DNA of 64,000 bases from an uncultured Fusobacterium sp. Its GTDB lineage: Bacteria > Fusobacteriota > Fusobacteriia > Fusobacteriales > Fusobacteriaceae. Shown here in pieces: positions 22,893 to 39,678 of this stretch. The notes below the pieces were generated by a model, which was given only the letters and a program-made list of their open reading frames with translations, made no database searches and was not told the DNA's origin. Each line of letters starts with the position of its first letter. Position 1 is the stretch's first letter. Location of the stretch: contig UQJY01000006.1 in the NCBI GenBank assembly GCA_900541465.1, forward strand, positions 1 to 64,000, given 5' to 3'. The position numbers and the translations under genes are program-made.

Positions 22893-23021
22893 TCCCTTTC
22901 ATTTCAAATGAAAGGGAAAATAAAAACTTATTCGTCCTTCCATCTGCTGGAATTAGCACCACACTCATATAAGCAGGTTGCTGAGACTTCACCGGGCCGC
23001 TCCCTCTGTCTCTCTTGATGG
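22893..23021 (-). promoter_or_regulatory. SAM-I (S-box) riboswitch with terminator, controlling metK
   Basis: On the minus strand the S-box core is readable in order: ATCAAGAGAGAC, AGAGGGA, CGGCCC, GGTGAAGTCTC and AGCAACC, closed by a CCATC/GATGG helix (23017-23021 with 22940-22944). The platform ends with a 12-pair terminator stem (22893-22917) and a T run. SAM binding should favour termination before metK. Confidence 0.93.
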
Positions 23022-23030
23022 TTCTCAAAA

Positions 23031-38626: not shown

Positions 38627-38655
38627 TTGAAAAATTTTTTAGAATGTGCTATTCT
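38627..38655 (+). promoter_or_regulatory. Promoter of the pur operon
   Basis: TTGAAA and TATTCT are spaced by 17 bases. Transcription would begin about 20 bases before the guanine riboswitch, giving a 5' leader of about 530 nucleotides before purE. Confidence 0.7.
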
Positions 38656-38679
38656 AAGATATAAAGAAAAATAAATAAT

Positions 38680-38750
38680 CGCTTATATAATAGTCGTAAT
38701 ACGGACGACAAGTTTCTACCTGCAAACCTTAAATTAGCAGACTATAAGCA
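38680..38750 (+). promoter_or_regulatory. Guanine-class purine riboswitch aptamer
   Basis: The purine-aptamer order is clear: P1 GCTTATA paired with TATAAGC, J1/2 TATAAT, P2 GTCGT/ACGAC with loop AATACGG, J2/3 AGTTTCTACC, P3 CTGC/GCAG with loop ACCTTAAA, and J3/1 GACTATAAG. The loop GG and CC needed for the kissing contact are present. The specificity base (position 74 in the usual numbering) is C in GACTAT, indicating guanine/hypoxanthine rather than adenine. Confidence 0.93.
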
Positions 38751-38794
38751 TCAAAGATATAACTTGTAAATATAATTTAAAAAAATAATATTCT

Positions 38795-38882
38795 ATTTGT
38801 TGTAGCTATGTTGCTTCGAGAGAAAAATTGGGTTAATTTTTCGTTCTTTATAATTTAATAATGAGGAGACAGAGTGACAATG
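38795..38882 (+). promoter_or_regulatory. Probable PRPP (ykkC subtype 2b) aptamer in tandem
   Basis: Landmarks resemble the ykkC superfamily: GCTATGTTGCTTCGAGAG at the 5' side (family form CUAGG-UUCCGAGAG), then an 8-pair stem GAAAAATT/AATTTTTC (38822-38842), an A+T-rich stretch, and GGAGACAG near the 3' end (family form GGGAGAC). TTGT/ACAA could close P1. Tandem guanine-PRPP riboswitches before purine genes are published. The A+T-rich inner stem is atypical, so a covariance-model match is needed. Confidence 0.55.
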
Positions 38883-38977
38883 TGTTTTATTTTTAAAAGG
38901 AATAAAAGGACATTTAGCAGCAAGTTTGACGAGACAAATTTAATTGGGTTAATTAACATAGAAAAAAATGAAATTAT

Positions 38978-39041
38978 GCACGCTATGAGTGTGCAGACGG
39001 TCTAGTGACGGTCTGCCACATTTCGTAGTGTGCTTTTTTTT
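38978..39041 (+). terminator. Long riboswitch-associated terminator before purE
   Basis: An outer stem GCACGCTATGA/TCGTAGTGTGC and an inner stem GCAGACGGTC/GACGGTCTGC (one mismatch) with a TAGT loop are followed by eight T. At about 25 base pairs it is the largest terminator in the window. It lies 150 bases upstream of purE, so it should be the decision point of the leader riboswitches. Confidence 0.85.
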
Positions 39042-39130
39042 CGCATTTATAGGAGTTGAATAACTAAAAGTAAATTCAACGACTAATAAATGCGATGAAC
39101 TGAAATTTTTATTTATTAAAATTTTAGTTC
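39042..39130 (+). promoter_or_regulatory. Two further hairpins between the terminator and purE
   Basis: CGCATTTAT (39042-39050) pairs with ATAAATGCG (39086-39094), with an inner GTTGAAT/ATTCAAC stem. Directly after, GAACTGAAATTTT (39097-39109) pairs with AAAATTTTAGTTC (39118-39130). They would be the folded 5' part of any read-through mRNA and may aid stability or form alternative pairings. Together with the features to the left they account for the 712-base gap between valS and purE. Confidence 0.6.
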
Positions 39131-39192
39131 GCTTCAAAAAATTATATAAAAAATTTAAAATTAATGAATAAAGTTTTGGAGGGGAAAAGTAA

Positions 39193-39678
39193 ATGGCAAG
39201 AGTTGGAGTTATTATGGGAAGCAGATCGGATCTTCCTACAATGGAAAATGCTGTTGAGATGTTAAAAAGATTTGGAGTTGATTATGAAGTAAAAATCGTT
39301 TCAGCTCACAGAACACCTGAACTTATGTTTGAATATGCAAAATCAGCAAAAGAAAGAGGAATTAAAGTTATAATAGCTGGGGCCGGAGGGGCTGCTCATC
39401 TTCCAGGAATGGTATCAAGCTTAACACCTCTTCCTGTAATAGGAGTTCCTGTTCAGTCAAAAGCAATGAGCGGGCTTGATTCACTTCTTTCAATAGTTCA
39501 GATGCCGGGAGGAATTCCAGTAGGAACAGTTGCAATAGGAAATTCCGGAGCAAAAAATGCAGGAATACTTGCAAGTGAAATAATAGCTCTTATGGACGAA
39601 GAAGTTGCTAAAAAAGTTGAAGAATTTAGAAGAGAACAGAGAGACGAAGTTTTAAAAACAAGCGAGGTTGAGGCATAA
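39193..39678 (+). CDS. purE: N5-carboxyaminoimidazole ribonucleotide mutase
   Basis: Moves the carboxyl group of N5-CAIR to give CAIR in purine synthesis. 161 residues; class I signature GSRSDLPTM at residues 9-17 and the catalytic His in SAHRTPE near residue 45, followed by [13 protein letters not shown]. The presence of purK next to it supports class I (mutase) rather than class II (carboxylase). Its stop codon shares one base with the purK start. Confidence 0.97.

Follow-up and report, generated by a model that had tools for sequence, protein, structure and literature searches.

A leader ORF that runs into the intrinsic terminator behind a guanine riboswitch suggests ribosome-dependent attenuation of purine operons in Fusobacteriota

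The purine operon of an uncultured Fusobacterium sp. is preceded by a leader that carries a guanine aptamer at one end and an intrinsic terminator at the other, which raises the question of what the RNA between them does. In the window (the whole stretch of DNA analysed, 64,000 nucleotides of contig UQJY01000006.1) the leader comprises about 530 bases between a valS-like gene, recognized by eye, and purE, the operon's first purine gene (39193-39678, + strand; TIGR01162, 230 bits). The genome is Fusobacterium-like, the PurE protein sharing 90% identity with its counterpart in ‘Fusobacterium sp. isolate cluster1_bin.39' and 95% with the one in genome G036. A DNA comparison of 38750-39060 with 98 genomes matched 19 of them; only the match to G036 was real (89% over the whole length), the others being pieces of 26-64 bases, and plasmid sequences gave no match to the leader. 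A promoter-like TTGAAA-17-TATTCT, with TG ahead of the second hexamer, lies at 38627-38655 (+). It is a consensus match only, and five such sites were found against 3.8 expected from shuffling, a number not above chance, so the promoter call is weak when taken alone. Between the terminator and purE (39036-39135) there are imperfect palindromes with one compensatory change seen by eye; in five genomes searched, G036 holds the region whole (92%) and G037 only a 23-base piece located elsewhere, while part of the region occurs a single time within the window.

The two ends of the leader are as an earlier note on this DNA had read them. The stretch 38663-38764 (+) matches the purine riboswitch family RF00167 with 80.1 bits (gathering score 37; E 9.8e-13), ahead of a purine operon in which purE is the next gene. 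The P1 strands, read from the sequence, are 38681-38687 and 38743-38749, and J3/1 is GAC (38740-38742), with C at 38742. A pyrimidine C in J3/1 specifies guanine rather than adenine. The sequence confirms 38663-38764 as a guanine-class aptamer, with guanine as the predicted ligand. At the other end, the terminator T2 (38978-39041, +) is indeed very strong and single: its hairpin (38978-39033) folds at -35.7 kcal/mol, with z -7.1 against 200 shuffles, and is followed by a run of 8 T (39034-39041). No other terminator was found in the window's leader upstream of the ORF described below, even when the threshold was relaxed to -3 kcal/mol. The fold of 38760-39045, a segment that includes the terminator, beats all 200 shuffles (z -3.86). 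The window also contains a SAM riboswitch (22937-23024, - strand; RF00162, 63.7 bits) of ordinary design, located upstream of a metK-like gene and provided with its own terminator, which has no ORF inside it.

The segment between these elements, 38795-38882, had been proposed to be a second aptamer of the PRPP/ykkC class. Against the whole of Rfam at E<=10, 38640-39060 returned only the Purine family and a chance miRNA match on the other strand, and 20 purE loci (L091-L110) gave no PRPP/ykkC covariance match at E<=0.5. The Guanidine-I/ykkC model matched 6 of 98 genomes of the phylum. Two of the six have what look like PRPP-type RNAs of the ykkC class (L145, 1501-1590, - strand; L146, 1501-1584, + strand, upstream of an NCS2-permease-like gene). 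These RNAs, assigned to the PRPP type by eye, served as positive controls and reached 47.6 and 45.4 bits with RF00442 (E 3e-6 and 1e-5; gathering score 63); no separate PRPP family was among the Rfam matches seen. As the controls were recovered, the same library would probably have revealed a relative in the window. When the window was aligned with ten ykkC-class RNAs, CUAGGGUUC was present in all ten of them and AAAAGCC in nine; the window has neither, although it contains the short look-alike CGAGAG. Guanine-PRPP tandems resemble the window in having a guanine aptamer first, purine genes and one terminator, and the purine operon setting suits their published logic. As described in the available part of PMC5912903, however, these tandems, like the PRPP riboswitches reported, were found in Firmicutes rather than Fusobacteriota, and their P1 stems are typically 5-7 nt apart, whereas about 45 nt separate the end of P1 at 38749 from the second segment (∼38795), in which no PRPP/ykkC aptamer was found. 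With the core strands missing and no covariance match in the window or in L091-L110, we reject a PRPP or other ykkC-class aptamer at 38795-38882, and with it a tandem riboswitch, as very improbable.

The strings that had been quoted as ykkC-like landmarks are present in the window, as parts of a different device. Most of CUAUG-UUGCUUCGAGAG, and likewise UUGCUUCGAG, falls within a strand at 38798-38817 (referred to below as the switch strand), while GGAGACAG is the Shine-Dalgarno (SD) region of a leader ORF. Reading 3' from 38795, the switch strand is followed by an A+T-rich hairpin (38822-38842, +; from folding), AUGAGGAG, 11 bases and an AUG; the hairpin gave no terminator call, even at -3 kcal/mol. 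The ORF (38880-39005, +) has 41 codons from ATG to TAG, and its stop codon (39003-39005) lies inside the terminator hairpin. Its SD, GAGGAG (38863-38868, +), is 11 nt upstream of the ATG, and an in-frame GTG at 38874 is a possible alternative start. In a P1-forced fold, UUCUUUAU (38844-38851, +) is a possible anti-SD, partnered with 38861-38868. A 13-base direct repeat, AATTGGGTTAATT, occurs before the SD (38826-38838) and again inside the ORF (38942-38954). The window displays the layout of an attenuator, an SD-bearing leader ORF overlapping an intrinsic terminator, and the pair is very probably a functional ribosome-dependent attenuator. The earlier view of a two-part integrating leader is retained in so far as there is a second part, namely a leader ORF that extends into the terminator; the PRPP half is not supported.

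The arrangement recurs in the phylum. ORFs were called by a script that requires an SD-like tetramer, and one is present in 22 of the 23 aptamer-bearing purE leaders, the exception being L098 from a Cetobacterium genome. The stop codon is inside the terminator in 21 of the 23 (in L097 the ORF stops 14 nt beyond the hairpin), compared with 1.01 cases expected by chance when the aptamer-terminator stretch of each leader was shuffled 500 times. The terminator-stop count and the shuffling are the fair tests, as a count of stops per frame is biased by the choice of a frame because it is open. The purE set leaves out L111-L115, L117-L120 and L248, and from a batch of 40 additional stretches the analysis drew on L147 alone. 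Among the matches listed, a further 40 leaders of the phylum with a guanine aptamer yielded one positive, the purM leader L202; its homologue L199 (purM by NCBIfam) has a leader ORF that runs past the hairpin.

Sorting 132 aptamer leaders by their downstream gene, using short motifs, placed an ORF that ends in the terminator before fhs (formate-tetrahydrofolate ligase) in 17/17 leaders, before purE in 21/23 and before purM in 1/2. For purL the strict script found 6/16, and inspection by eye 11/18; the latter count adds L282 and L283, as well as L233, L234 and L273, in which the stop codon overlaps only the first bases of the hairpin, and takes in L239 and L240, which have no ORF, from the class of other genes. 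The remaining leaders gave 1/74 in total, made up of 1/55 for permease-labelled genes, 0/4 for guaA and 0/15 for other genes (two of which are purL), and the ORF of the sole permease-labelled positive, L271, starts within the aptamer. The split between biosynthesis leaders and the remaining aptamer leaders is clear, with the proviso that p-values are uncorrected and that the counts are not independent, some leaders (L280 and L281, for example) being almost the same sequence. An NCBIfam scan of seven proteins, five of them fragments, agreed with the purE, fhs, purL, purM and guaA labels and identified the L256 product as a xanthine permease; the permease-labelled L243 gave no match, and some scores of fragments were below the curated cut-offs. 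The design is not universal, as it is absent from 7 of the 18 purL leaders (L239-L242, L249, L277 and L278) and from the purE leader L098. Four Bacillus-type purE leaders contain no ORF within the terminator. L077 (upstream of 3001), a purE leader from Acholeplasmatales whose aptamer is guanine-like, shows short ORFs ending at or in its terminator only when no SD is demanded.

The distance from the stop codon to where the T-run ends has a median of 33 nt and quartiles of 25-39 over 51 rows; the row of L234 is faulty, and the ORF of L097 continues beyond the hairpin. By script, no other terminator is present in 16 of the 17 fhs leaders. L236 is the most telling single leader: its SD nearly abuts P1, and the sole terminator found sits at the end of the ORF. 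These data bear on the view that the ORF is a product of chance in A+T-rich DNA and that the aptamer controls T2 through plain long-range RNA refolding. The leaders are A+T-rich and, as shown below, the peptide is not conserved, both of which a chance ORF would explain, but 21/23 purE leaders against 1.01 expected, 17/17 before fhs and 1/74 in the other aptamer leaders make this explanation highly improbable.

The peptide is not conserved. In 12 pairs of ORF bodies, with some sequences used in more than one pair, substitutions number 35, 34 and 34 at codon positions 1, 2 and 3, with no synonymous bias; the comparison covers only the parts upstream of the terminator, and the alignment is uncertain in the 2 of the 12 pairs that contain gaps (3 bases in the window and L091; 9 and 1 in L096 and L097). 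No residue common to all leader peptides was found, and closely similar terminator RNA in fhs leaders is read in more than one frame, the peptides ending GLSVY* or KV*. The features that persist across the leaders are the SD, the start, an uninterrupted frame and a stop at ∼33 nt from where the T-run finishes, which looks like an ORF maintained for the place to which it brings the ribosome. An amino-acid attenuator or an arrest peptide, in which a codon run or the nascent chain is sensed, would have the same classic layout of a leader ORF overlapping a terminator, and by eye ‘SV' recurs close to the C-terminus of several leader peptides. The even substitutions, the lack of residues common to all leaders and the reading of similar fhs terminator RNA in different frames nevertheless render such a mechanism very unlikely.

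How the aptamer might act on the ORF is suggested by duplex predictions. The P1 3' side and its flank (38746-38763, +) have their best partner in the switch strand (38798-38817, +; -11.5 kcal/mol, shuffle p 0.043), with which they pair in the predicted guanine-free (ON) fold, and the switch strand is likewise the best partner for the region from the SD to the AUG (-14.8 kcal/mol, p 0.030). One strand that can pair with either the P1 side or the SD and AUG gives the layout of a translational riboswitch acting on the leader ORF. The joint probability of such one-strand pairing (from shuffling, uncorrected) is 0.007 for the window and 0.002-0.003 for L091; in the purM leaders it is 0.005-0.013 (L199) and 0.015-0.033 (L202). 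Values are 0.03-0.07 for L092 and, among purL leaders, 0.07 for L282 and 0.06 for L283. In L096 and L097 the strands are at the same places with non-significant joint values (p 0.12-0.32); L093 is not significant either (p 0.4), and in L094 and L095 the partners do not overlap. The partners overlap in 5/17 fhs leaders, three of these with p<=0.04, and in 4/8 purE leaders that have an aptamer terminator (L100, L101, L110 and L116). The pairing tests thus appear to support gating in the window and its closest kin, and do so weakly or not at all for the other leaders.

In equilibrium folds computed without and with P1, respectively, the probability that the AUG is unpaired is 0.71 and 0.53 in the window, 0.65 and 0.08 in L091, and in the purM leaders 0.71 and 0.02 (L202) and 0.09 and 0.01 (L199). 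For the SD the corresponding values are 0.15 and 0.22 in the window, and the change is in the wrong direction in L096 (0.11 and 0.45) and L097 (0.09 and 0.47). Modelled accessibility at equilibrium is not decisive, as it does not show clean gating. The purE leaders of the window type (the window and L091-L097) have no other terminator at -8 kcal/mol. At -3 kcal/mol there is still none in the window, L091, L092 and L094, and only very weak ones in L093 and L095, while upstream of the ORF in L096 and L097 lies a weaker hairpin (-6.0 and -6.6 kcal/mol, respectively) followed by 7-8 T, perhaps the aptamer's own terminator. Of the 22 purE leaders that carry an ORF, 14 also contain a clear aptamer terminator.

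From the pairing predictions and the position of the ORF we infer a model, which we regard as probable on balance, in which the output of the guanine riboswitch is translation of the leader ORF, and this translation decides intrinsic termination. With guanine bound, P1 would be stable and the switch strand free to pair with the SD and the ORF start (38862-38882); no ribosome would load, the hairpin at 38978-39033 would form and RNA polymerase would halt before purE. When guanine is absent, the switch strand would be held on the P1 3' side, opening the SD, and a ribosome would translate all 41 codons and, on arriving at the stop codon or close to it, cover the 5' arm of the hairpin, such that the purine operon is transcribed. 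In E. coli, ribosomes repress an intrinsic terminator that lies a few bases behind a gene, and a terminator within the initial 100 bp of a coding region may remain functional, according to the accessible text of PMC4824070. The latter observation implies that a polymerase pause would probably be needed in the leader.

The strongest competitor to gating of the ORF by the riboswitch is a pair of independent attenuators in series, the guanine aptamer working through a different route and the ORF and T2 sensing translation or, by way of a race between polymerase and ribosome, the supply of purine nucleotides. The 14 purE leaders that have an aptamer terminator in addition to the ORF and T2 suggest that in such leaders the ORF responds to another signal or operates in series, and that it must be worth keeping beyond guanine. 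The unconserved peptide is compatible with this arrangement, and so is base composition: in 13 of the 17 T1-type purE and fhs leaders tested, the A content of the ORF body exceeds that of stretches taken from the purine genes in the window (fraction <=0.02), with A fractions of 0.59 in L105 and 0.64 in L276, for example. In addition, 32/39 leaders with a leader ORF have AGTGT at the last terminator or immediately ahead of it, compared with 12/46 other terminator-bearing aptamer leaders; the motif might be a polymerase pause site, or might reflect plain kinship. Conversely, A-richness in this sense is missing from all 7 leaders of the window type that were tested (the window has an A fraction of 0.44; fraction 0.199). 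In the window, moreover, as no other terminator was found before the ORF, the aptamer would lack an evident output other than the ORF itself. Attenuators in series are a possible reading, and a rather doubtful one.

A design that combines elements of both can also be entertained. The aptamer would read the end product and the ORF the purine nucleotide supply through the polymerase-ribosome race, low ATP or GTP slowing the polymerase and letting the ribosome reach the terminator, while the riboswitch could also shut the ORF. Such a two-input gate would be spread over the phylum and reserved for genes of de novo purine and formyl-tetrahydrofolate synthesis; it is a speculative and somewhat improbable proposal. 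In E. coli pyrBI, UTP is sensed via a race between RNA polymerase and ribosome; the pyrBI leader ORF likewise overlaps an intrinsic terminator, and is not known to be preceded by a riboswitch. By analogy, the Fusobacteriota leaders may possibly be the purine equivalent of pyrBI with a riboswitch in front.

In their classical form, guanine riboswitches of RF00167, for example those of B. subtilis purE and xpt, have one terminator beside the aptamer and are not known to have a leader ORF. The window is similar to them in its aptamer, ligand class, purine biosynthesis target and expected OFF logic, but differs in the leader ORF between aptamer and terminator. The individual components have precedents elsewhere. 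In B. subtilis bmrB, an intrinsic terminator likewise lies in a leader ORF and blocked translation lowers downstream expression, the response being to ribosome-targeting antibiotics; in contrast to the window, the part of the report consulted places no riboswitch in front of bmrB (PMC4191407). Riboswitches of M. tuberculosis control or meet a small upstream ORF with effects on the operon, although, in the accessible sections of the two reports, the Mbox-uORF system uses Rho-dependent termination (PMC12810186) and the B12 switch-uORF is a translational OFF device (PMC11260477), whereas the window has an intrinsic terminator inside the ORF. The Salmonella mgtCBR leader uses leader ORFs as attenuators, one of which, mgtM, responds to ATP; its signals are amino acids and ATP, and no purine-class aptamer features in the available portion of that paper (PMC3641672). 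Among the matches listed in a literature search, with most subscription journals outside its coverage, titles and abstracts describe neither a leader ORF behind guanine riboswitches nor such a design in Fusobacteriota. We rate the design as a combination of known kinds, a riboswitch joined to a ribosome-mediated attenuator.

In most descriptions, a riboswitch controls either a terminator or the start site of the gene it regulates. The riboswitch in this leader seems to act on the start of a leader ORF that apparently serves to bring a ribosome into an intrinsic terminator, and the design recurs before four heads of purine-synthesis operons, purE, purM, fhs and, in most of the leaders seen, purL. 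It also carries a caution, in that a structured-looking stretch behind an aptamer may be a ribosome-binding site and not a second aptamer. For the Fusobacteriota, the leader would offer a direct test of transcription-translation coupling.
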